Assembly: GCF_008040165.1 (NCBI RefSeq)
Contig: NZ_VRUR01000002.1
Span: 124,001 to 188,000 of the forward strand
Direction of reading: 5' to 3'
Length of the DNA stretch: 64,000 nt
DNA from: Flagellimonas hymeniacidonis
Lineage (GTDB): Bacteria > Bacteroidota > Bacteroidia > Flavobacteriales > Flavobacteriaceae
The position numbers and the translations under genes were made by a program. Position 1 is the first letter of the stretch, and each line of letters begins with the position of its first letter. The notes under the pieces were generated by a model. That model saw only the letters and a program-made list of their open reading frames with translations, ran no database searches and had not been told where the DNA came from. Below, piece by piece: positions 2,913-41,351 of the stretch.

Positions 2913-3056
2913 TGCCGAAACAAGTTCGGTATGATAGCAAGGGAAAATTTTGAAACCGTTCCTTTGTTGATTGATGGGCGGCTGTCATTTTGAGTGGAAT
3001 TGAAAATGGTAATTACTTGCCTTAATCAAATCAAGCTGTCATCCTGAACCTGTCAA
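2913..3056. repeat. Degenerate intergenic repeat remnant
   Basis: This non-coding spacer between convergent genes contains a CCGAA/TTCGG hairpin (2915-2929) and two diverged copies of a TGTCATyyTGA word (near 2993 and 3042). These resemble the short intergenic palindromic repeats with a CTGAAACAAGTTCAG-like core that I recall from Bacteroidota genomes. The copies are too decayed to set element borders. Confidence 0.35.
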
Positions 3057-3062
3057 ATAAAA

Positions 3063-4544
3063 TTACTCCCCCTCAACCACAAATTCCCGTATGGCCTGGT
3101 TGGGTTCCATAATGGTATAGCCTTTCCAGAACTCAGGATTATAGGCTGATAAATAGGTAGCCTTTATGGTTTCATCCTCTTTTAAGGCTTCAAAATTGGC
3201 TTTGGACAATACATCAGAATCAAAAACTACCAGTTCGTATTTTTCAGTATTATAGTTGACGATATCCAAGGCAAGGGAGAGTTCGTTCTGTTTTCTGCGA
3301 CCCTTTACATGTTTGTTCTTCTCAATCACCTTTAAGGGGCGGTCAACTCCCATTTTTCGTCCAAAGGTGAAGTTCATAAACTTTAGTTTATACTTATCTC
3401 CATCAAACTTGGAGAAAACCGTACTGCCAAAATATTTCAGCTCTTGGTAGCTAAAGCCCAATAGCTTAATGCTTTTGATGGTTTTTATATTTTCATAGTC
3501 CATGCGCATAATGGCAAAATTCTCGATGTTCACAAAGAGCTTGCCCTTGAAATCAGCACGTCCCTTTGGGGCAAAGCCCACCACGTACACCCCTTGGTTT
3601 TCCAGTTCAGAATAGCCCAAAAGTTCATACTCATAGCGGTGCAGCTTTTTGGCCACATCTAATTTGGACTTTCCAAAAAACTGGTCGGTAATCTCACTTA
3701 AAATATATTTGCGGTTCCCCAAAAAATCACTTTTTTCAGGCTTCTTCAGCTCGCCCTCCAGTTCATCGGTCTCTTCTTTCTCCTCAAAAATGGAATCCAA
3801 TGGTACTTTTTCGCCAAAAATCCCCGATTTTATCTTTAGATACGAATCTGGTTTTACATTGGCCCTAAAAATGGCTTCCATTTTGTCGGACAGCGCTTCC
3901 ATAGATCCCTCGTTACTTTTGTCGTACAATTCGGCCGCTTTTATAATCTCCAATTTATTCTCTTCCCCGTTTTGATAATAATCGCCTAAAGTTTCTGTGT
4001 AATAGGAAGAATTTCTTGGGAGAATGGAAACGATGCTGTCAATCAAATGCTTGTCTAGCTCGGCAATGGTGGATTTTTTGAATTCAATCCCCATTTTCTG
4101 CACCGTATTAAAACTAGATTGCCTTAAAAAGAAGCGTTGTTTTAGGGGTGCTTTGTTATAATTTGTGGGGAGTCGGTCTTCAACCCGTTCCATAATCTCG
4201 TCTACATCCAATTCCTTATCAAACAAATAAACTCCGCTCAGTTCAATGGCTTTGGGAGTAATGGTGATGATGCTGTCTTGCAGTTGCGCTAGGGTGAATC
4301 CTGTTTTTTGATAGCCCATGGAGGAGACATAAATGGAATCTTGCTCAGCAATTTCTTGGTCCAATACAAAACTGAAGCGGCCTTCTTCATTGGTGATAAC
4401 TCCTTGATGAGCCCCATATTGTATAGTGGCATAAGGGATACCTTTTTGGGTTTTGGCATCTACCAATTTGGAACTAATGGTCTGTGCAACAACGGCACCG
4501 CCCATACAAAGTGAGATACAGAAAGAAAGTATTGATTTACGCAT
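3063..4544 (-). CDS. Secreted protein with N-terminal carboxypeptidase-D-regulatory-like domain
   Basis: About 493 residues from the ATG at 4542-4544 (MRKSILSFCIS...), chosen over an in-frame ATG 23 codons upstream because it gives a proper signal peptide ending near VVAQ. Residues of about 20-100 form a carboxypeptidase-regulatory-like beta-sandwich (KLVDAKTQKGIPYATIQ, then TNEEGRFSF), the module found at the front of many Bacteroidota envelope proteins. The rest is a long region of unknown type, with an acidic Glu/Lys-rich linker near the middle and a beta-rich C-terminal half. No TonB plug or barrel end is visible, so it is more likely periplasmic or surface-associated than a receptor. It forms a single-gene unit convergent with ctlX. 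Confidence 0.75.
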   Translation of the reverse strand: MRKSILSFCISLCMGGAVVAQTISSKLVDAKTQKGIPYATIQYGAHQGVITNEEGRFSFVLDQEIAEQDSIYVSSMGYQKTGFTLAQLQDSIITITPKAIELSGVYLFDKELDVDEIMERVEDRLPTNYNKAPLKQRFFLRQSSFNTVQKMGIEFKKSTIAELDKHLIDSIVSILPRNSSYYTETLGDYYQNGEENKLEIIKAAELYDKSNEGSMEALSDKMEAIFRANVKPDSYLKIKSGIFGEKVPLDSIFEEKEETDELEGELKKPEKSDFLGNRKYILSEITDQFFGKSKLDVAKKLHRYEYELLGYSELENQGVYVVGFAPKGRADFKGKLFVNIENFAIMRMDYENIKTIKSIKLLGFSYQELKYFGSTVFSKFDGDKYKLKFMNFTFGRKMGVDRPLKVIEKNKHVKGRRKQNELSLALDIVNYNTEKYELVVFDSDVLSKANFEALKEDETIKATYLSAYNPEFWKGYTIMEPNQAIREFVVEGE

Positions 4545-4663
4545 AGACGTTGATTCGTTATTTTGATTGTGAGCTTTTTTATATAGACAACACAAAAGGC
4601 AAAATGGTTGCATTTAGTGTAGACGAATTTTATGGGAATTTGTAACAAGGATTGTTCCAAAAA

Positions 4664-6088
4664 CTAGCTTTTGGCCAGATTCCTAATCATACCACTAAAA
4701 ATAAAATAGTGAAAAGGGAGTACGCTATACCAATACAATCGACCTCTAAGTCCTTTTGGTCTAAAGGTGGCAATTTGATGCAACGTATTTTGTTCATCAA
4801 TTTTAAATTCTAGCCATGCTTCCCCAGGCATTTGCATTTCGGCAAAGAGCAATAGTCGTTTTCCCTTTTTATCTGCCAAAAGGACTCGCCAGAAATCTAA
4901 TGCATCCCCTGGAAATATTTTATCTGGATGGGTACGGCCACGTCGCAGTCCTGGACCTCCGTTGAGTTTATCCAGAAACCCTCGAATTTTCCAAAGCCAA
5001 TTACCGTAATACCAACCTGTTTCCCCGCCAATTTTCCAAATGTTGCTTAAAGCATGATGATTGTCCTTTACTGTAATGGACTTTATATCTTGCAAGACTC
5101 CATATTTAGGGACTTGAATGTATTTTTCTAAATCTTCATGAATTTGCCCACTTGCAATACTGTCTTTCCAACTACTAACAACCAAGTTTTGCTCAATTTT
5201 TTTGAAGGCCATTTTTATTGCTGCTTCGTAGCTGTGGGTTTCAATGCCTAGGAGTTGTTGCAATCGGTTGTCCTTGGCAACAACTTCCATTTTCATGCTA
5301 TCTACAAGGTTTATTGCCAACTTATAAGAGGTCGAGGTAACAAAATAAAGCCAATAGGAAGATAGTTTTGGTGTCATGATTGGCACAGTTAAAATCCAGT
5401 TTTTAAAGCCACGAATTTTAGCATATTTATGCAACATCTGTTTGTATGTAAGTACATCGGGCCCACCAATATCAAAGGATTGGTTGTAGGTTTTAGTATT
5501 TCCCAAAACCCCGGTCAAAAAGTTAATAATGTCACGGATGGCAATGGGTTGCGATTTGGTCAATACCCATTTAGGGGTAATCATTAAGGGAAGTTTTTCA
5601 CAAAGATCACGTATGATTTCAAAAGAAGAGCTTCCCGAACCTACAATAATCCCAGCACGTAATACAGTAAGGTTAAAATTGCCTTGGTATAAAATGGTTT
5701 CCACGTTCTTTCGCGAGCTTAGATGTTTAGATAGCTTTTCCTCGTTAACAATCCCACTCAAATAAATCACTTGAGTTACATTGGTTTTTGAGATTAGGGA
5801 ATTAAAATTCTTGGCGGCCAATGCTTCCTTTTCATCAAAATCATCTATGGAAGAAGTCATAGAATGGATAAGGTAGTAGGCAACATCTATATTCTTTGGT
5901 ATGCGTGTCTTTTGTGATTCCTCTAAAAAATCAATTTCTATAATTTGAATCTGTTCTCTTGTCTTTTTATCTACAGACAAGCGTTTTTGATCGCGTACCC
6001 CACAGATAACCTCATGCCCTAGTTCTAGCAAACGGGGCAATAATCGCATACCAATATAACCGTTGGCTCCAGTGAGAAAAATTTTCAT
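4664..6088 (-). CDS. SDR-family NAD(P)-binding protein with C-terminal DUF2867 domain
   Basis: A 474-residue two-domain protein. The N-terminal part (about 1-300) is an atypical short-chain dehydrogenase/NmrA-like Rossmann domain with the TGANGYIGMRL dinucleotide motif, an AYYLIHSM segment and IYLSGIV where the active-site Ser/Tyr region lies. The C-terminal part (about 330-474) matches DUF2867, with WYYGNWLW, GGPGLRRGR and the PGDALDFWRV signature. This architecture is common in Bacteroidota and Actinobacteria; its substrate is unknown. Its ATG overlaps the stop of the upstream DUF1648 gene by 4 nt, so the two are translationally coupled. Confidence 0.85.
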   Translation of the reverse strand: MKIFLTGANGYIGMRLLPRLLELGHEVICGVRDQKRLSVDKKTREQIQIIEIDFLEESQKTRIPKNIDVAYYLIHSMTSSIDDFDEKEALAAKNFNSLISKTNVTQVIYLSGIVNEEKLSKHLSSRKNVETILYQGNFNLTVLRAGIIVGSGSSSFEIIRDLCEKLPLMITPKWVLTKSQPIAIRDIINFLTGVLGNTKTYNQSFDIGGPDVLTYKQMLHKYAKIRGFKNWILTVPIMTPKLSSYWLYFVTSTSYKLAINLVDSMKMEVVAKDNRLQQLLGIETHSYEAAIKMAFKKIEQNLVVSSWKDSIASGQIHEDLEKYIQVPKYGVLQDIKSITVKDNHHALSNIWKIGGETGWYYGNWLWKIRGFLDKLNGGPGLRRGRTHPDKIFPGDALDFWRVLLADKKGKRLLLFAEMQMPGEAWLEFKIDEQNTLHQIATFRPKGLRGRLYWYSVLPFHYFIFSGMIRNLAKS

Positions 6089-6597
6089 TGTTTGGAAATG
6101 GTGTACATCTTATAGATATATAAAAATGGAAGTAATGCAACCACTATCCATGATCCCAATAAGAGTTGCACATCCAGAGTGCCTACAACCCCTTTTATTT
6201 TTAGGAGCATAATGAGTGTGGTAAGCAAAAAGGCAACAACGGAAGCTAGATTCATTGCTGCAATCATCCGCAGCCCCAATGCGTATAGTTTCGGTGCATT
6301 TTTCTCGGTAACTTTTACAGGGAAATTCATATAATAGGGTTTCATTTTAGTAACAAAAAACCCTAATCCAAAATATAGCGTAGCACTGATGATCGGGATA
6401 ATCCAAAGGACAGATTTATGGCCGTACCCATCTACTTCACCCTTTAGATTAAAATGCGTTGGGATGGTATCTGGGAGGTCATAATAAAAAACAAGGACCA
6501 AAAGTACATTTAGAATGACAATGATCCATCCTAGCTTTATCAGTTTTTTGTCAGCGGGACTTGGCTTTACTTCAATTTTCGGTTTTTTGCTAAACAT
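6085..6597 (-). CDS. DUF1648-domain membrane protein
   Basis: A 170-residue integral membrane protein with about four transmembrane helices. The DUF1648 signature is clear in residues of about 25-75: helix, then YYDLPDTIPTHFNLKGEVDG, followed by a conserved Trp-Ile-Ile-Pro turn. The domain occurs in SdpI-like immunity proteins and in many uncharacterised Gram-negative proteins. It is the first gene of a two-gene operon with the SDR/DUF2867 gene (4-nt overlap), suggesting joint work at the inner membrane. No immunity role is implied, because no toxin gene is nearby. Confidence 0.85.
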   Translation of the reverse strand: MFSKKPKIEVKPSPADKKLIKLGWIIVILNVLLVLVFYYDLPDTIPTHFNLKGEVDGYGHKSVLWIIPIISATLYFGLGFFVTKMKPYYMNFPVKVTEKNAPKLYALGLRMIAAMNLASVVAFLLTTLIMLLKIKGVVGTLDVQLLLGSWIVVALLPFLYIYKMYTISKQ

Positions 6598-6685
6598 GAT
6601 CCTTGATTACTTTGTTGCGCAGTTTTTATGCTACTTGTTCCACACTACGGATTTTACTGTAATTAAAGTTAGGCTTTTTTATGTT

Positions 6686-7111
6686 TTAAAGATCTTCTAA
6701 GGAAGTGGGAGCGTTATCCGCTTTGTAATCCAATAGTTTCTTAAAATATTTTTGGATGGCCTTGTTGTCCGATTTTACCTTTATAAAATAGCTATCCTTG
6801 TAAATGGAATAGACGGCAAAATCGCCTTTGTACAAGTTTAGTTTATAATAGGGAATGACCAGACCATACGTTTCCAGCAAAGACCTAAACCGAACAATGA
6901 TTCCTTTTGGACGCATTTCTATATTGCATGTGTTCAGGTTATTGTCCAGAATCAGTAGATTTTGGATTTCAACACTTGTTTCAGTAATAAAAAGTTTGGG
7001 TGAGCCGATTCCGCCTAAAGCAAAACGTTGTTTTAAGGTAAAAGGCATGCCAACAGCTTCGTCAATTTTTCTGCTGATTTTTTTATCATTGTACGATACA
7101 TTTAGAAGCAT
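6686..7111 (-). CDS. Conserved hypothetical protein
   Basis: A 141-residue protein that I do not recognise. It has no signal peptide or clear transmembrane segment. Alternating hydrophobic residues suggest a mostly beta fold (GIIVRFRSLL, FAVYSIYKDSYFIKV). The acidic C-terminus follows a helix rich in Lys and Tyr. It is divergent from argS, 95 nt away, and lies about 90 nt upstream of the DUF1648 operon on the same strand. Length, composition and codon use look like a real cytosolic protein. Confidence 0.6.
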   Translation of the reverse strand: MLLNVSYNDKKISRKIDEAVGMPFTLKQRFALGGIGSPKLFITETSVEIQNLLILDNNLNTCNIEMRPKGIIVRFRSLLETYGLVIPYYKLNLYKGDFAVYSIYKDSYFIKVKSDNKAIQKYFKKLLDYKADNAPTSLEDL

Positions 7112-7176
7112 GCCTAAAATTAACCAAAACCATGTGGATTACTACTTCACTTTTTAGTTAAAGTGTAAGAATTGAT

Positions 7177-7184
7177 TAGTTTTG
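7177..7184 (+). promoter_or_regulatory. Promoter -7 box of argS (TAGTTTTG)
   Basis: An exact TAnnTTTG match 22 nt before the argS ATG, in the spacer from the divergent gene. Confidence 0.65.
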
Positions 7185-7206
7185 CACCCTTAAATGCCGT
7201 GTATTA

Positions 7207-8985
7207 ATGAATATTCAACAGGTACTTACCACCACAGTTAAAGCAGCTGTTTCTTCCATTTATAATGCAGAACTACCTTCAGTAGAGTTTCAGCCCACCC
7301 GTAAAGATTTTGAAGGGGATATTACTGTGGTCGTGTTTCCTATGTTGCGTGTGGTAAAAGGAAATCCCATGGAAATTGGAACCAAGATTGGGGAGTATTT
7401 GCAGGAGCATGTAGGTGAAGTTGCAAAATTTAATGTGGTCAAGGGCTTTCTAAATATTGTCATGGAAGATGGATTTTACCAGGATTTTTTCAAATCTATT
7501 TTTAATGAGGAGGATTACGGTTATGTAAAAACGGATACTACCAATGCGGTAATGGTCGAATATTCTTCTCCAAATACCAACAAACCGCTGCATTTAGGTC
7601 ATATCCGAAACAATTTATTAGGGTATTCGGTATCTGAAATTTTAAAAGCTGCCGGAAATAAAGTGTACAAAACCCAGATTATCAATGATCGCGGTATTCA
7701 TATCTGCAAGAGCATGTTGGCCTGGCTGAAATTTGGGAATAGCGAGACTCCGGAGTCATCTGGATTGAAGGGTGACCATTTGGTAGGGAAATACTATGTA
7801 GCGTTTGATAAAGCCTATAAAGAACAAATAGCCGAATTGGTTTCTCGAGGAATGGAAAAGGAGCAAGCAGAAAAGGGGGCTCCAATTTTGCTTGAAGCTC
7901 AAGAAATGCTTCGTAACTGGGAATCGGGTGATGATGAGGTAGTGGCGCTTTGGAAAAAAATGAACGGCTGGGTGTATACCGGTTTTGATATCACCTATAA
8001 AAATCTAGGAGTTGATTTTGACACCCTATACTATGAAAGCAATACCTATCTTTTAGGTAGGGATGTGGTAAAAGAAGGTCTGGAAAAAGGCATTTTCTTT
8101 AGAAAAGATGACGGTAGCGTCTGGATAGATTTGACAGATGAAGGGTTGGATGAGAAAATTGTACTTCGCTCTGATGGTACTGCGGTATATATGACCCAAG
8201 ATATTGGAACCGCCATTCAACGGGTAACCGATTTTCCAGATATTAATGGAATGGTATATACTGTAGGCAATGAGCAAGACTATCACTTTAAGGTGCTATT
8301 TCTTATTCTTAAGAAGCTGGGATATAGTTGGTCTCAGCAACTACATCATTTGAGTTATGGCATGGTGGACCTTCCCAGTGGTAAAATGAAGAGTAGGGAA
8401 GGTACTGTTGTGGATGCAGATGATTTAATTGATAACATGGCACAAACCGCCGCGGAGATTTCTGAAGAATTGGGCAAACTGGAAGGCTACACCACTGAAG
8501 AGAAACAAAGACTTTATAAAACCATAGGTCTTGGAGCTTTAAAATATTATATCCTTAAGGTGGACCCCAAGAAAAGGATTTTGTTCAATCCTGAAGAATC
8601 TGTGGATTTTCAAGGGAACACAGGACCCTTTATTCAGTATACCTATGCTAGAATACAGTCTATCCTTAGAAAAGCCGATTTCGATACTTCTACAGTGTCG
8701 GACATTACATTTGAACTGCATGAAAAGGAAAAGGAATTGCTAAAGCAACTTCAACTTTTTCCAGAAACGGTTCAATTGGCGGCAGAAAATTATAGCCCGG
8801 CCCTAATTGCCAATTATACTTATGATTTGGTAAAGGAATTCAACTCTTTTTATCAGCAAGTATCGATTTTAGGAGAGGTAGATGCGGATAAAAAGTGCTT
8901 TCGTGTACAATTATCCAAAAAAGTAGGAGAAGTGATTCAATCCGCTTTTAAACTTTTGGGGATTGATGTTCCTGAACGGATGTAA
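7207..8985 (+). CDS. argS: Arginyl-tRNA synthetase
   Basis: This class I aminoacyl-tRNA synthetase charges tRNA-Arg and is 592 residues long, normal for the family. It shows the N-terminal tRNA-binding additional domain, the HIGH motif as HLGH at about 129-132 after SSPNTNKP, and a KMSKS-type loop as KMKSREGT near residue 392. The C-terminal anticodon-binding helical domain ends VPERM, as in many ArgS proteins. A consensus promoter box lies 22 nt upstream. The stop overlaps the next gene's ATG by one base, so the MtfA-like peptidase is probably co-translated. Confidence 0.98.
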   Translation: MNIQQVLTTTVKAAVSSIYNAELPSVEFQPTRKDFEGDITVVVFPMLRVVKGNPMEIGTKIGEYLQEHVGEVAKFNVVKGFLNIVMEDGFYQDFFKSIFNEEDYGYVKTDTTNAVMVEYSSPNTNKPLHLGHIRNNLLGYSVSEILKAAGNKVYKTQIINDRGIHICKSMLAWLKFGNSETPESSGLKGDHLVGKYYVAFDKAYKEQIAELVSRGMEKEQAEKGAPILLEAQEMLRNWESGDDEVVALWKKMNGWVYTGFDITYKNLGVDFDTLYYESNTYLLGRDVVKEGLEKGIFFRKDDGSVWIDLTDEGLDEKIVLRSDGTAVYMTQDIGTAIQRVTDFPDINGMVYTVGNEQDYHFKVLFLILKKLGYSWSQQLHHLSYGMVDLPSGKMKSREGTVVDADDLIDNMAQTAAEISEELGKLEGYTTEEKQRLYKTIGLGALKYYILKVDPKKRILFNPEESVDFQGNTGPFIQYTYARIQSILRKADFDTSTVSDITFELHEKEKELLKQLQLFPETVQLAAENYSPALIANYTYDLVKEFNSFYQQVSILGEVDADKKCFRVQLSKKVGEVIQSAFKLLGIDVPERM

Positions 8986-9830: not shown

Positions 9831-12381
9831 AGCTAAAATTGGGTGTAATACCCAAAGAAATGCTTTCTACCGTTTCAATTTCATTGTCCTCTGTAACCCT
9901 GTAGTATTTGTTCAAGCTGTTTTTTCGGTTGGTCATGTTTAGCAAAGAGATTCCTGCATTTGCTTTGATTCGTGGGCTGATGTCAAACTTGTATATCGTA
10001 GAAGCATCAACTCTAAGGTATTCGGGTAACCTACTACTATTGGGAGATTCATAGTTGATACGTGCCGGAAATACCGACGTATCCAGTGCCATATCTCCTT
10101 CTTGAGGTTCTGTAAATGGCTTTCCTGAACGATAATTGAGCCCCAAACTTAGTTTAAGATCTTTGTAGGTATAGGTGCCTGCCAGAGTAAGGGTGTGTCT
10201 AATATCAAGATTGTTAGGAAAATTGTTAGGGTCTATTGCGTCAAAATTGTAATCGTTTTTATTGTATGTATAACTCAACCATGCACTATAATTATTTCCC
10301 TTTTGATTGATCAAGAATTCCATGCCTTTAACATCATAGCTACCTATCTCACCATTAAATTGATTTTGGTTTTGAAATCCTTGTGTACTGGTACTGATTC
10401 CGTCCACTTTTTTGAAGAAACCTTCCACGCCCACATAAAAACTATTCTTATCATAGTTGATGCCTATGGAGCCTTGCTTACTTTTAGTAATGGGTAGGGT
10501 GCTGTCATCAGATAAAATCCATCTCCGTTTTTCTATACCTAAGAAGTTTTGTTCTAAATCTATGATTTGGTTGGTAGTTTGACTTTTAAACTCTCCCAAA
10601 ACCTCTCCTCTAAGATGATTTGCAAGTCTAAAACTGAGGTTAAGGCGAGGTTCAATCAAGAATTCTGAAAACGTACCCAGGTTTTCTATGTAATTGAGAC
10701 GAACGCCTGCCTTGCCCCTAAATTTGTTTCCATCTGTACTATATCCAATCTCTGTGTGTGGGGCGTGAATTCTAATAACGCCTTTTATTTCACTGTCAAA
10801 AGGTGGCCGGGTAAGAATTGTAGTGTTGGTAATGCCTGTTTCTATGTATTGATAGCCGTTGTTCCAATTCAGATTTTCATTTAGGTTGTAATCTGTGTTT
10901 AATTTGACAGCGTTTTCGATAACCTGATTATTTTGGAGCAACAATTGAATTTGATTGCCAAAAAGGTTTTGGGCATCTAGATTGTACCGCGAATAATAGA
11001 CATTTACGTTGGAAGAAAGCCTATCGGTCCATTGACTTTGTAATTGCCCCCCAAAGGACAGATTGGTTTGATTTAGAATGCTATTTGTGGTTTCTAAATC
11101 GGTCAAATTGGTTTCTGTATAATCAAGACTATTGGTAATACTGATAAAATTCAACCTGAATTTGTGCTGGTCATTTACATCATACAGTAGTTTTCCCGTG
11201 AAGTCGTAAAAGAAGAAGTTTTCATCCCTTACAATATCATCATCTACGGCAATATTATTTTGATTGGTCACTTCGCTATCTTGAAATGCCCGGTCAAAAA
11301 ATTTGTTGTAGGTAGGGGTGTTCAAAAAATCGGTGGTGGAACGTCTGGCAGAAAATTGTAATCCAAGCTTTTCTGTAATGGGAATTTGGCCGTAAACGTC
11401 ACCGCTAATGAAGTTAAAACCTGCTCCACCAGTAAGATCTGTAGATAGCTCATTATTGGTTTCCATTTGAATAACACTGCTTACACCATCACCAAAGACC
11501 GCTGGAGTACCATTTTTTATCACCGTAATTTTATCGGTCAAATAAGGGTTGAAGGCAGAAATCAACCCAAAAAAGTGCCCAGATTGATACATTTTAATCC
11601 CATTCCATAAAATTAGGTTCTGGTCATTGGTACCGCCACGCACATTAATGTCCGATACGGTTTCATCAATACTCTTAATGCCAGGAAGTGCTTGAACGGT
11701 CTGTAAAATATCAGGCTCTATTAAACCAGGTAAAATTCCAAAATCGGCAGTATTCAATGTAATACTTGCATCAGATTCTTTAATGATACCTGTGGTAAGA
11801 AATTGGTATACAATGACTTCTTTTAACTGCTCATAGTGTTGAGCTAAAAGAATTTTTGGGCAACCGCCATCTTTTAATAAGCTTTCAACTGCAATATATT
11901 TGGTATTATACCCTAAGTATCTAATTTTTAAGGTGGCATTTCTTGGAATATCCCTCAACGAAAAACTACCATCCCCAGCGGTGGTTATGGCTATTTCTGT
12001 TTCAAATACCTCTATGGTAGCACCGGAAATGGTATTTTCTGCGAAATTGTCCAATACTTTTGCGCATACCGTAACCAAGGTACTTTTGGTCAGTGTATAA
12101 TAACGGTCGTTAAGCTTTTCCGTCTTTATCTGTAATTGGGTTTGAATGTGTTGTAGAATATCATCCAATGCCACTAAATTTTGGGGTATGGTAATGCTAA
12201 AACCTTCCAAATCTTCATTGATGTATGAAAATTTGATATCGAATTTATCCTCTAAGGTTTTTATGTATGGTATAAGCGCAACTGGAGCGTCCTGTTTTTC
12301 CTGTGCATAACTATGGAAATTCAGGAGCAATAAAAACCCAATGAAGAGGCCAAAATGGCTGCTACGGAGTTTTTTTAGCAT
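9814..12381 (-). CDS. TonB-dependent receptor with STN signalling domain
   Basis: About 855 residues from the ATG at 12379-12381 (MLKKLRSSHFG...), with a signal peptide ending near SYAQ. The order is an STN (secretin/TonB N-terminal) domain at about 30-105, a carboxypeptidase-regulatory-like domain at about 108-190, the plug (SDINVRGGTNDQN, then FGDGVSSVIQME), and a 22-strand-type barrel ending in FSFRVTF. An STN domain marks receptors that signal to a FecR anti-sigma factor, and fecR lies directly upstream with about 20 nt of overlap. The ligand is unknown. The window holds no SusD partner, so a siderophore, a peptide, or the acidic lipoprotein across the divergent promoter are all possible. 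Confidence 0.92.
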   Translation of the reverse strand: MLKKLRSSHFGLFIGFLLLLNFHSYAQEKQDAPVALIPYIKTLEDKFDIKFSYINEDLEGFSITIPQNLVALDDILQHIQTQLQIKTEKLNDRYYTLTKSTLVTVCAKVLDNFAENTISGATIEVFETEIAITTAGDGSFSLRDIPRNATLKIRYLGYNTKYIAVESLLKDGGCPKILLAQHYEQLKEVIVYQFLTTGIIKESDASITLNTADFGILPGLIEPDILQTVQALPGIKSIDETVSDINVRGGTNDQNLILWNGIKMYQSGHFFGLISAFNPYLTDKITVIKNGTPAVFGDGVSSVIQMETNNELSTDLTGGAGFNFISGDVYGQIPITEKLGLQFSARRSTTDFLNTPTYNKFFDRAFQDSEVTNQNNIAVDDDIVRDENFFFYDFTGKLLYDVNDQHKFRLNFISITNSLDYTETNLTDLETTNSILNQTNLSFGGQLQSQWTDRLSSNVNVYYSRYNLDAQNLFGNQIQLLLQNNQVIENAVKLNTDYNLNENLNWNNGYQYIETGITNTTILTRPPFDSEIKGVIRIHAPHTEIGYSTDGNKFRGKAGVRLNYIENLGTFSEFLIEPRLNLSFRLANHLRGEVLGEFKSQTTNQIIDLEQNFLGIEKRRWILSDDSTLPITKSKQGSIGINYDKNSFYVGVEGFFKKVDGISTSTQGFQNQNQFNGEIGSYDVKGMEFLINQKGNNYSAWLSYTYNKNDYNFDAIDPNNFPNNLDIRHTLTLAGTYTYKDLKLSLGLNYRSGKPFTEPQEGDMALDTSVFPARINYESPNSSRLPEYLRVDASTIYKFDISPRIKANAGISLLNMTNRKNSLNKYYRVTEDNEIETVESISLGITPNFSFRVTF

Positions 12382-13297: not shown

Positions 13298-13324
13298 AAC
13301 AACTATGTTTTAAAAAACCCTACT
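13298..13324 (-). promoter_or_regulatory. Putative ECF sigma promoter of fecR
   Basis: Read on the minus strand: AGTAGGG (13324-13318), six T, seven free bases, then AGTTGTT (13304-13298), ending 24 nt before the fecR ATG. The same words with the same spacing occur in the sense direction before the divergent lipoprotein gene (13954-13980). Shared words, identical spacing and the position beside a sigma/FecR cassette suggest it is the recognition site of the local ECF sigma factor. Confidence 0.65.
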
Positions 13325-13402
13325 TATTCAATTTACAATGAGCAATATACAGTGTTCAATATAGGTTAATACAATTGTTTACTGTCCATTGTTAATTGAA
13401 TA
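13325..13402. repeat. Long inverted repeat between sigma gene and fecR
   Basis: The arm at 13325-13340 (TATTCAATTTACAATG) is the reverse complement, with one mismatch, of 13387-13402 (CATTGTTAATTGAATA), enclosing about 46 nt. In transcription order it begins 3 nt after the sigma stop and ends right at the putative ECF promoter of fecR. It may end or weaken read-through from the sigma gene, or be a member of a dispersed intergenic repeat family. Confidence 0.55.
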
Positions 13403-13405
13403 TTG

Positions 13406-13903
13406 TTAGATTCCATCAATCTGCTCTCGTAATGCTTTTAATGCCAAATGCATTCGTTTTTCTATAGCCTTTACACTTACACCTTCCATTTCTGCAATTT
13501 CTGCATATTTCTTTCCATCTATCCTATTTAATAAAAAAGTAGTCCTTTGATTTTCTGGAAGATTGTTCAACGCATTGTCCAATTTTTGTTGGTATTCTTT
13601 TTCTACCAATAAAAATTCTGGCGACTCATTTGAAATTTCTAAGCTTGGCTTCGCATACTTTAACCTAACCTTTTCAGCTTTGATGACATTTAAGTAGGTA
13701 TTACTGGCCACCGTATATAAATACGACTTGGCTTTTTCTGGTAAAACCTTTGCACAGTTCTCCCAAAGTTTCACAAAGGCTTCTTGTACGGCATCATGTG
13801 CCTTCTCTTCATTGCCAAACTTATAATATATATAATTGAAAACCGTTTTGGAATTAGCCTTAAATATTGAGCTAAAGACCTGCTCTTCGCAAACGTTGTT
13901 CAT
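13406..13903 (-). CDS. ECF RNA polymerase sigma-70 factor (FecI type)
   Basis: A 165-residue two-domain sigma factor. Region 2 is visible as VFNYIYYKFGNEEKAHDAVQ with AFVKLWEN, and region 4 as LPENQRTTFLLNRIDGKKYAEIA, with the recognition helix around VSVKAIEKRMHLALKAL. It should direct RNA polymerase to promoters for the fecR/receptor operon and probably the divergent lipoprotein. Its own upstream region carries a housekeeping-type TATCTTTG box rather than the ECF-like motif. That suggests constitutive supply of the factor with control at the protein level by FecR. Confidence 0.95.
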   Translation of the reverse strand: MNNVCEEQVFSSIFKANSKTVFNYIYYKFGNEEKAHDAVQEAFVKLWENCAKVLPEKAKSYLYTVASNTYLNVIKAEKVRLKYAKPSLEISNESPEFLLVEKEYQQKLDNALNNLPENQRTTFLLNRIDGKKYAEIAEMEGVSVKAIEKRMHLALKALREQIDGI

Positions 13904-13925
13904 TTAGAAGGGTTTGTCATTTACC

Positions 13926-13933
13926 CAAAGATA
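13926..13933 (-). promoter_or_regulatory. Promoter -7 box of the ECF sigma gene (TATCTTTG)
   Basis: A minus-strand exact TAnnTTTG match ending 22 nt before the sigma gene's ATG. Confidence 0.6.
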
Positions 13934-13953
13934 TTTTAAAAATTTTAAGATAA

Positions 13954-13980
13954 AGTAGGGTTTTTTCTTTGAGAGTTGTT
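13954..13980 (+). promoter_or_regulatory. Putative ECF sigma promoter of the divergent lipoprotein
   Basis: AGTAGGG (13954-13960), TTTTTT, seven free bases (13967-13973), then AGTTGTT (13974-13980), 37 nt before the ATG at 14018. It is identical in words and spacing to the motif before fecR on the other strand, with the N7 spacer differing in sequence. That is the pattern expected for a sigma site and not for a recent duplication. Confidence 0.65.
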
Positions 13981-14017: not shown

Positions 14018-15772
14018 ATGAAAAAGTTGATAAGTAACTTAATGTACGCTGGCCTAGCAATGCTGGCACTTAACTTTACTTCATGTCAAGAAGAATTTGA
14101 AGAAGTGAATGGTGGAACTAACGCTGAGACCATTCAAGCAAACTCCACTACTGCAGACTTAATCGAAAAAACATCATCTAATGATGGTTCTTTCGATAAT
14201 ATTGTGGATGGTGCTAGCTGTTTTGCTTTGAAATTCCCTTATACTGTTGAAGTCAATGGAATTCAAGTCACAATTGATTCAAGAGAAGATCTTCATACTA
14301 TAGAAGATATTTTTGATGAGGTTGATATAGATGAAGATGTTTTAGAGATTTTTTTCCCTATTACGATTACTCTTGCTGATTTCTCTGAAATTGTAATTGA
14401 GAATAAGGAGCAGTTAAGAGAATTGGCCGAAGCTTGTTTAGAAGGTGGAGCAGATGATGACATTGAGTGTATTGACTTTGTTTATCCAATCACCTTATTC
14501 ACGTTCGATATCAACAACCAACAAACAGGAGAAGTTGTTGTAGAAAGTGATGAGGATTTAAGAAAATTCTTTGATGGATTAGAAGATAACGATCTAGTAA
14601 GTATTCAATTTCCTTTGACTTTAAAGAAATTTGATGGAACTGAGATTATTGTAGATAGCAACGGTGAGTTGGCCAATGCCTTGGAAATGGCCAAAGATGA
14701 ATGCGATGAAGATGACGATGATGATTTTAACGATGACGATTTTGATGAAGAGCGTTTTGATTTTTGTTTAACGCAGTGTCCATGGGAAGTTCGTGAACTT
14801 GTTAGAGATGAGGTTAACCAAACCGATCAGTATTTAGAATATATCATGACCTTTATGGATGGTGGAACAGTAACCGTAAAAGATAGAGAAGGAAATGTGT
14901 TGAATGGTACTTGGAGCTCAAGCTTTACCGATCGTGGTCCACTTTTAACACTTGAATTCGATGTCTTGGTAGACTTTAACTTAGAATGGTTGGTTTATGA
15001 AATAGGTGATCATACTATTAAGCTTTATGCTGAAGGTGGAAACAAGATTATCATGAAGCAACTTTGTGAAGATGATATCCCAGGACCAGATACTTTAAGA
15101 GAAATCTTAAAAGAATGTGAGTGGATCATCAAGAAGGTTAAGAACCAAGGAGAAGAAATTGATAGACTTCTAGGATTCGAATTTAAATTCATGGCAGAAG
15201 GTGTGGTTACCCTAAGTAATGGTATCACAACTTCAGAAGGAACATGGGAAGTAGGATTAAATGATGATGAAGTGCCTTCGCTGTTAATTACTATAGGAGA
15301 TGAGCCTGGAGTAAGTTTTGACTGGCCTCTAAGAGATCTTGATGATCATAGATTGAAATTTGAAGTTGAAGAAGTTGACTATGAATTGGTTCTGTTGCGA
15401 GTGTGTGATGATAATAATGCCGATGGAGATGTTGTTGAGATTAGAACTGCTCTAATGGATGGTGCTTGGAATGTAGCCCAGTATAAAGAGGATGATGTGG
15501 ATAAAACAAGTGAGTTTGCTGGATTGGATTTCTATTTCAATGAAATGCACCGTGTACAAGTAGATGAAAACGATAACCCAATCATTGAGGGTCTATGGAG
15601 AGTAATCAGAAATCATGATAATGAGTTGAAGTTCTTCTTGAATTTTGCTAATGATGCCAAGTTTGGAGAAATTACAGATGACTGGTATATAGCATCTGTA
15701 AGTGCCAACCGCATAGAATTGGTCCAGGAAGATGAAAATTCTACGGAAACCCTGGTTTTTGAGAAACCATAA
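14018..15772 (+). CDS. Acidic repeat-containing lipoprotein
   Basis: A 584-residue lipoprotein (signal peptide ending NFTSC, lipid Cys at 23) that I cannot assign to a named family. Two repeat types are visible. Four short beta modules at about 67-93, 107-137, 150-185 and 193-222 share a pattern of FPxT, a strand, an Asp-rich turn, xVxS and then L. After a strongly acidic linker (about 227-247), three longer lipocalin-like modules at about 254-350, 358-463 and 475-582 share a central GTW or GLW strand and a closing I/L-rich strand. It is divergent from the sigma/FecR/receptor operon and shares its putative ECF promoter motif. It may be the surface partner or output of that system. The acidity suggests metal or cation binding, which is an inference. 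Confidence 0.85.
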   Translation: MKKLISNLMYAGLAMLALNFTSCQEEFEEVNGGTNAETIQANSTTADLIEKTSSNDGSFDNIVDGASCFALKFPYTVEVNGIQVTIDSREDLHTIEDIFDEVDIDEDVLEIFFPITITLADFSEIVIENKEQLRELAEACLEGGADDDIECIDFVYPITLFTFDINNQQTGEVVVESDEDLRKFFDGLEDNDLVSIQFPLTLKKFDGTEIIVDSNGELANALEMAKDECDEDDDDDFNDDDFDEERFDFCLTQCPWEVRELVRDEVNQTDQYLEYIMTFMDGGTVTVKDREGNVLNGTWSSSFTDRGPLLTLEFDVLVDFNLEWLVYEIGDHTIKLYAEGGNKIIMKQLCEDDIPGPDTLREILKECEWIIKKVKNQGEEIDRLLGFEFKFMAEGVVTLSNGITTSEGTWEVGLNDDEVPSLLITIGDEPGVSFDWPLRDLDDHRLKFEVEEVDYELVLLRVCDDNNADGDVVEIRTALMDGAWNVAQYKEDDVDKTSEFAGLDFYFNEMHRVQVDENDNPIIEGLWRVIRNHDNELKFFLNFANDAKFGEITDDWYIASVSANRIELVQEDENSTETLVFEKP

Positions 15773-40948: not shown

Positions 40949-40954
40949 AAAAAG

Positions 40955-41351
40955 TGGAGCCGGGGAGAGTCGAACTCCCGTCCAAACAAGCAAAGTCAAT
41001 GCTTTCTACATGCGTAGTCCTTGTTTAGTTTTCGATGCACAACCGACCAAAGACCGCCTATTGTACACTTAGCTTCTTAAAGTTTTAGTGGTATTGCCAA
41101 AGCGAACAATACCCTTATGTTGACTTTTATGGTGCTCCAAAACAGATCGCCGTCAACAAGGGCTATCCAGGAACATCTCGCTTCCCTACCTAGTAGGGAC
41201 GAGGCTAAATCCTACTATAATTCAGATTAAGCGGCAAGAGCGTAATTATTATCGCCAATTAAAAGTGTGGAAAATGAGATTAACGAGCTGTATCCCAGCG
41301 CTCGACATGCTTACATTGCCATTGGTCTCGCTGTCAAAACCGGTCGGCCCC
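40955..41351 (-). ncRNA. ssrA: Transfer-messenger RNA
   Basis: About 397 nt. The 5' end GGGGCCGACCGGTTTTGACA (from 41351 down) pairs with the 3' end GGCTCC to form the tRNA-like acceptor stem, and the T arm reads GGACGGGAGTTCGACTCTCC near 40984-40965. The tag frame at 41256-41227 encodes GDNNYALAA followed by TAA, the usual Bacteroidota degradation tag. The CCA end is not encoded: the discriminator A is followed by CT. It rescues stalled ribosomes together with SmpB, which is not in the window. Confidence 0.96.

Follow-up and report, generated by a model that had tools for sequence, protein, structure and literature searches.

The stretch analysed here (the window) comprises 64,000 nt of contig NZ_VRUR01000002.1 of Flagellimonas hymeniacidonis. 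It contains a locus in which genes for an extracytoplasmic function (ECF) sigma factor, a FecR-type anti-sigma factor and a TonB-dependent receptor-like protein are arranged divergently to a gene for an acidic lipoprotein (Table 1). A two-part motif, AGTAGGG-TTTTTT-N7-AGTTGTT, is present on both arms of the locus. From the evidence below it is likely that the ECF sigma factor encoded between these two copies uses them as its promoters, as part of a regulon that is wider than the locus and works by surface signalling of the FecI/FecR type. The sigma factor scored above the cutoff of TIGR02937, and its best model was TIGR02985 (Sig70_bacteroi1) with 123.3 bits against a cutoff of 126.4; by these model matches the product is a Bacteroidetes-type ECF sigma factor. 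Since the receptor gene and the 3' end of fecR share 35 nt, the two genes presumably form one operon. The match of the receptor N-terminus to FecR_C (E 0.0014, 19.1 bits) was under the 24.4-bit cutoff. FecR_C was listed at E up to 1 for all 12 receptor N-termini tested, the best with 6.5e-8, and such an N-terminus is consistent with a signalling domain.

Table 1. Features of the sigma factor locus (window positions) and of related loci in three other genomes.
Feature	Position	Strand	Basis or remark
TonB-dependent receptor-like protein, outer membrane, 860 aa	9814..12396	-	CarbopepD_reg_2 and Plug above cutoff
Receptor N-terminal stretch related to FecR_C (signalling-domain-like)	12100..12264	-	FecR_C match below cutoff
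FecR-type anti-sigma factor / sigma regulator, 303 aa	12362..13273	-	FecR and FecR_C above cutoff
Proposed ECF-type promoter of fecR and receptor, GTAGGGT-N13-GTTGTT	13298..13324	-	24 nt before fecR ATG
ECF sigma factor, 165 aa	13406..13903	-	Sigma70_r2 and r4_2 above cutoff
TAnnTTTG-type box upstream of sigma gene, TATCTTTG	13926..13933	-	22 nt before sigma ATG
Proposed ECF-type promoter of divergent lipoprotein	13954..13980	+	37 nt before lipoprotein ATG
Acidic lipoprotein, 584 aa	14018..15772	+	signal peptide and Cys23 by eye
Near-invariant acidic loop of lipoprotein, CDEDDDDDFNDDDF	14702..14743	+	34 sequences
Lipoprotein C-terminal part, repeated beta domains resembling lipocalin-like proteins	14777..15769	+	predicted structure
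Motif pair around 54-56% identical paralogous sigma	G071:C43:102628-103287		
Motif pair around 54-56% identical paralogous sigma	G095:C565:27909-28540		
Motif pair around 54-56% identical paralogous sigma	G165:C1:101511-102134		

When the window was searched with the full motif at up to 3 mismatches, exactly two matches were obtained and both were perfect. They lay where the initial annotation had placed them, each in the sense direction of its gene, with identical spacing and different N7 spacers. Shuffled windows gave a mean of 0.01 matches, and none of 100 shuffles contained two or more. In the whole 3.89-Mb genome the 27-mer had 5 matches at up to 3 mismatches compared to 2 for a control with the pattern written backwards. 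In this genome-wide search, which the initial annotation had called for, the core GTAGGGT-N13-RTTGTT had 6 exact matches against 2 for the control. Two of the six exact sites were at the sigma locus, three were intergenic and one was within a 591-aa open reading frame (ORF). Over 24 genomes of the genus the exact core was found 146 times, compared to 6 times for the reversed pattern, and in 15 more distant genomes of the order 4 times compared to 2.

Conservation of the two arms was evaluated in 81 loci, namely the window and the best 80 of 428 loci with lipoprotein relatives; their titles include Flagellimonas, Allomuricauda, Croceitalea, Muriicola, Eudoraea, Robiginitalea and Maribacter. All 81 loci had the sigma gene, and a fecR match was found within the fetched stretch in 75 of them, window included. 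Four of the other six were short contigs, and L037 and L073 had no fecR within the flank. Arm sites were taken as the best core match in the 180 nt upstream, with the first -10 letter scored against G alone. On the lipoprotein arm the core was present at the same spacing in 81/81 loci (54 exact, 25 with one and 2 with two mismatches) and on the fecR arm in 75/75 (37 exact, 33 with one and 5 with two), whereas only 10 of 3120 shuffled upstream regions reached 2 or fewer mismatches. GTAGGGT and the final TGTT were invariant in the 156 arm sites, each of which had been picked as the best core match. The T-run after GTAGGGT was a preference only, and the conserved part is thus narrower than the original 27-nt string. 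From the core to the ATG there were 30-38 nt on the lipoprotein arm and 22-24 nt on that of fecR; L031 (112 nt) was the exception. The motif stays with fecR even in L051 and L075, where sigma and fecR are separated by other ORFs. In L031 the lipoprotein gene is duplicated in tandem (3049-4794 and 5001-6755), and each copy is preceded by its own motif.

Some further features of these loci were recorded. A 555-556-aa ORF, which resembles a formate-tetrahydrofolate ligase, is found near sigma in the Robiginitalea loci L051 (2655-4322, between sigma and fecR) and L037 (1936-3606). L051 also has a short additional lipoprotein-like ORF downstream (6787-7284), and in further loci there are downstream stretches that match the C-terminal portion of the lipoprotein.

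The sigma gene itself was different. A TAnnTTTG box was found within 80 nt upstream of it in 76/81 loci, compared to 3% of shuffles, and the exact sense core was found upstream of it in 0/81. The housekeeping box that the initial annotation had assigned to the sigma gene instead of the motif is thus conserved among these loci. A sigma gene read from a housekeeping-type promoter together with an anti-sigma gene read from a sigma-type promoter would amount to negative-feedback wiring.

The regulon appears to extend beyond the locus. Of the 146 exact sites in the genus, 48 were core pairs. A total of 83 sites were classified by what follows them; two of these (L187, L191) turned out to be the core sites of G006, a fragmented genome, leaving 81 non-core sites. 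The classes were a small RNA (24 sites in 24 genomes), a membrane microprotein (20 in 20), a 55-aa membrane protein (9 in 9), lipoproteins (17 in 8 genomes; one core, 16 non-core) and other sites (13, one core). The 27-aa microprotein had the core upstream in all 24 genus genomes, exact in 20, with 1 mismatch in G001, G009 and G020 and with 2 mismatches in G003. Its nonsynonymous difference (pN) was 0.173 compared to a synonymous difference (pS) of 0.775 (171/171 pairs; 19/20 sequences, one dropped for length), and the values for the 55-aa protein, found behind an exact core in 9/24 genomes, were 0.232 and 0.742, respectively (36/36 pairs, 9 sequences). Judged by these values, both are under protein-level constraint. 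The microprotein had no Pfam match. In other genera, inspected by eye, the core was seen before microprotein-like ORFs in G188, G140, G158 and G167 and before a divergent one in G075; before 55-aa proteins in G140, G214, G158 and G164; and before lipoproteins. Of the 35 core sites inspected there, 13 coincide with long ORFs and are for the most part probably chance occurrences. Because the same core precedes the unlinked RNA and the microprotein in 24/24 genus genomes, the lipoprotein seems not to be the only output, and its designation as the output of the system in the initial annotation is not supported.

Just upstream of the microprotein lies a 28-aa tandem paralogue (MNTFF.../MSTFF..., ending in KK; G000:C2:406784-406864; L309, L311, L312, L315 and L316), which had no motif in front in the sequences fetched. 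A longer paralogue is located elsewhere (59 aa in L314).

The unlinked RNA of approximately 100 nt that follows the exact core in all 24 genus genomes was recognised by sequence only. It consists of a short 5' part, a small hairpin, a 26-nt segment (AUAUGUUUAGGUUGGUUUUGAUUUUA) that was identical in 24/24 genus sequences, and a G+C-rich terminator. Covariation of base pairs was weak, with double changes at 3 terminator pairs and none in the first hairpin. In the four of 24 RNA loci searched against Rfam, no family exceeded its gathering score. Chance-level matches on the RNA strand were to the Bacteroides sRNA BTnc049 (L091:1385-1498, minus strand; 23.3 bits against a gathering score of 81.9, E 3.7) and to Atu_C9 in L144 (E 2.2). 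Within the window itself, only a tmRNA (40952-41351, minus strand) scored above an Rfam threshold. A tiny ORF in place of an RNA is unlikely because 1-nt changes in T-run length between genera shift the frame over the conserved segment; in addition, the 26-nt segment had no wobble change in the 24 genus sequences.

A covariance model of the RNA body without the promoter was searched in 199 genomes of the family, one per genus, at E up to 0.01, and 37 of them matched. Among the matches listed for the sigma factor there was a gap in identity, with 31 genera at 72% or more and the rest at 59% or less. RNA matches were found in 29 of the 31 genera with the orthologous sigma, compared to 8 weak ones in the 168 others, and all 22 matches at E up to 1e-4 belonged to the 31. 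Among 30 RNA loci inspected, a core in the same orientation preceded the RNA in 26, exactly in 21 and with one mismatch in 5. All 26 belong to the 31 genera, and the four loci without it were weak matches (1.4e-4 to 2.4e-3). TTAGGTTGGTTTT was kept in 24 of the 30 loci, and the length of the T-run following it varied. In L251, L262, L267 and L269 an additional hairpin followed by a T-run was seen by eye between the 5' part and the conserved segment; it may be an internal terminator.

Changes in the motif were compared with changes in the sigma factor. Position 2 of the -10 hexamer was not T in 7/75 loci, always on both arms, and was T on both arms in the other 68. The sigma factor carried K64 in 6/7 of the changed loci compared to 2/74 of the others, and A60 in 6/7 compared to 7/74. 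Location, conservation, these partly concordant changes and co-occurrence point to recognition of the motif by this sigma, which very probably drives the anti-sigma and receptor genes and the lipoprotein.

The lipoprotein had no match to any Pfam or NCBIfam family, SusD families included. Its loop CDEDDDDD-x-NDDDF suggests that it may bind metal. In the predicted fold, repeated short units of beta-hairpin and helix are followed by beta domains (mean predicted local distance difference test, pLDDT, 76.6); the predicted template-modelling score (pTM) was 0.41, and the packing of the domains is therefore unreliable. In the fold search the Bacteroides structures 5byp (uncharacterized), 4zgf (DUF4847) and 4qrl (titled lipocalin-like) ranked 18, 26 and 29 with a probability of 1.00 and a target TM of 0.52-0.61; the 17 matches ranked above them had probabilities of 0.20-0.72 and a query TM of 0.12 or less. 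Relatives of the lipoprotein (E up to 1e-10) occur in 132/199 sampled genera, many more than have the orthologous sigma.

A working model can be drawn from these features. The sigma gene would be transcribed from its housekeeping-type promoter. The receptor, perhaps with the lipoprotein, would sense a condition at the surface, its N-terminal domain would act on FecR, and FecR would free the sigma factor. Free sigma would then transcribe fecR and the receptor gene, which would restore the anti-sigma factor and close the feedback loop, as well as the divergent acidic lipoprotein and the unlinked genes with the same promoter, namely the small RNA and the single-span membrane microprotein. In some species it would also transcribe the 55-aa membrane protein and other lipoproteins. 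The envelope would thus be adjusted by surface lipoproteins, small membrane proteins and the RNA, whose invariant single-stranded segment presumably pairs with mRNAs.

Several observations weigh against this model or parts of it. We infer the envelope role from the type of the genes and their products only. Pfam STN had no match in the 12 receptor N-termini at E up to 1. The concordance of -10 and sigma changes is confounded by shared descent, as most of the seven changed loci carry the title Muriicola or Eudoraea. There are also exceptions to it: L067 has a changed -10 together with T64, and in G210 the site of the RNA is GGTGTT while the core pair is RTTGTT. Two genera with the orthologous sigma, G094 and G173, had no RNA match at E up to 0.01. 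Among the 29 that had one, the motif was found by inspection in 26 and by coordinates in G158 (core 80 nt upstream), G229 had a weak match with no motif nearby and G088 was not inspected.

The search for RNA targets belongs on the same side. No conserved complementary target was found, short seeds not having been searched genome-wide. The complement AAAACCAACCTAAAC had 35 matches at up to 2 mismatches in the F. hymeniacidonis genome compared to 55 for the control, and 74 at up to 1 mismatch in the 24 genus genomes (24 in the RNA itself and 50 others) compared to 104. A porin-like gene (L296) was rejected as a target: pairing just before its ATG reached -20.5 kcal/mol, but five orthologues were weaker (-14.4 to -7.9). 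The complement AAAATCAAAACCAACC had 29 matches at up to 2 mismatches in the F. hymeniacidonis genome, the RNA itself included, compared to 18 for the control. In a second candidate (L232) a complement ends 4 nt before the ATG. Among 64 start regions of the window, sigma, lipoprotein and fecR ranked 28 to 48 for pairing with the RNA, nothing special.

A chance repeat, or an artefact of T-rich intergenic DNA, would fit the one exact genomic site in six that is inside a coding ORF. It would also fit the core sites with one mismatch, which were at background in the F. hymeniacidonis genome (23 matches compared to 21 in the control), a count so near the control that exact sites were used to find new regulon members. 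This explanation is refuted by the shuffle expectation and by the conservation of both arms in every scorable locus, and we give it practically no weight. The motif might instead be read by several related ECF sigmas, or by another sigma or regulator, with the local sigma as only one user. Motif pairs flank paralogous sigmas of 54-56% identity in three more distant genera (Table 1), and the motif is therefore not peculiar to this sigma; to this extent the proposal of the initial annotation that the local ECF factor drives fecR, the receptor and the lipoprotein needs qualification, although the shared promoter type kept on both arms and the gene overlap agree with it. The F. hymeniacidonis genome also encodes a 53% identical sigma paralogue (C1:195853-196341), but 0/23 exact or one-mismatch sites lie near it. 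Since, moreover, the RNA follows the orthologous sigma and the -10 changes largely go with K64 in this sigma, we consider this reading unlikely.

The locus could also be a classical nutrient-uptake system, a view near to that of the initial annotation. Sigma, anti-sigma and receptor would then be devoted to the uptake of a single substrate, with the lipoprotein as surface partner of the receptor and as sole dedicated output. The order of the FecI, FecR and receptor genes is that of such a system, and the predicted lipocalin-like domains could bind a ligand. The same core in front of an unlinked RNA and microprotein throughout the genus argues against it, as does a lipoprotein outside all Pfam and NCBIfam families, and we regard this explanation as quite improbable.

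FecI-FecR-FecA of E. coli is a cell-surface signalling system. In that system (review PMC9249621), as here, an ECF sigma, a FecR-type regulator and a TonB-dependent receptor are co-encoded and the receptor has an N-terminal domain before the plug; in the window the FecR-type regulator is likewise adjacent to the sigma gene. The present locus differs in that the sigma gene is not under the motif, a divergent lipoprotein is present, an unlinked RNA and microprotein carry the motif, and the receptor N-terminus matches FecR_C rather than Pfam STN. It also lacks a feature of the SusC/SusD uptake pair, as its lipoprotein matches no SusD family. In the envelope-stress regulon of E. coli sigma-E, an ECF sigma controls its own anti-sigma, envelope genes and the small RNAs MicA, RybB and MicL. 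The likeness lies in one ECF sigma over an anti-sigma, envelope genes and a conserved, unlinked small RNA behind the same promoter type, known here from sequence alone; the difference is a FecR-type regulator with a receptor instead of RseA/RseB.

Among the Bacteroidota, SigW-1 and SigH-1 of B. thetaiotaomicron, placed in ECF251 and ECF114, respectively, likewise have ECF-linked promoters, and that of SigW-1 has TGTT near the -10 like the final TGTT of our motif; the text compared (PMC12596196) contained no GTAGGGT element and no RNA/microprotein regulon. The SM6 promoters of F. psychrophilum, as described in PMC9723704, are a flavobacterial ECF-type motif at a sigma/anti-sigma pair and a putative regulatory RNA, Rfp11. 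Identity of our motif with SM6 was rejected, since SM6 has a CGT box. In open-access literature text no account of the motif or the RNA was found, the motif letters having been searched little and the microprotein sequence not at all.

ECF sigmas of Bacteroidota are many and their regulons largely unknown, as is stated for B. thetaiotaomicron (PMC12596196). In about 30 of the 199 genera sampled, the sequence is enough to make out a promoter, negative-feedback wiring and several classes of target, among them an RNA without Rfam match and a microprotein without Pfam match. Promoter specificity of ECF factors could be tested on a natural example, the group in which the -10 and the sigma factor have changed. 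There is perhaps an even chance that the locus heads an envelope-homeostasis regulon of the Flavobacteriaceae that has not been described before. Its FecI-type sigma, under the control of FecR and a TonB-dependent receptor at the cell surface, would switch on a small RNA with an invariant 26-nt pairing segment, a single-span 27-aa microprotein and acidic lipocalin-like lipoproteins. Such a regulon would be the equivalent in Bacteroidota of sigma-E and its small RNAs, assembled from components of surface signalling. On the whole, the locus seems to belong to a conserved response at the cell surface and not to a switch for a single gene, and the model that follows from it, of a route by which a surface receptor might act on an RNA regulator and very small membrane proteins, can be tested.
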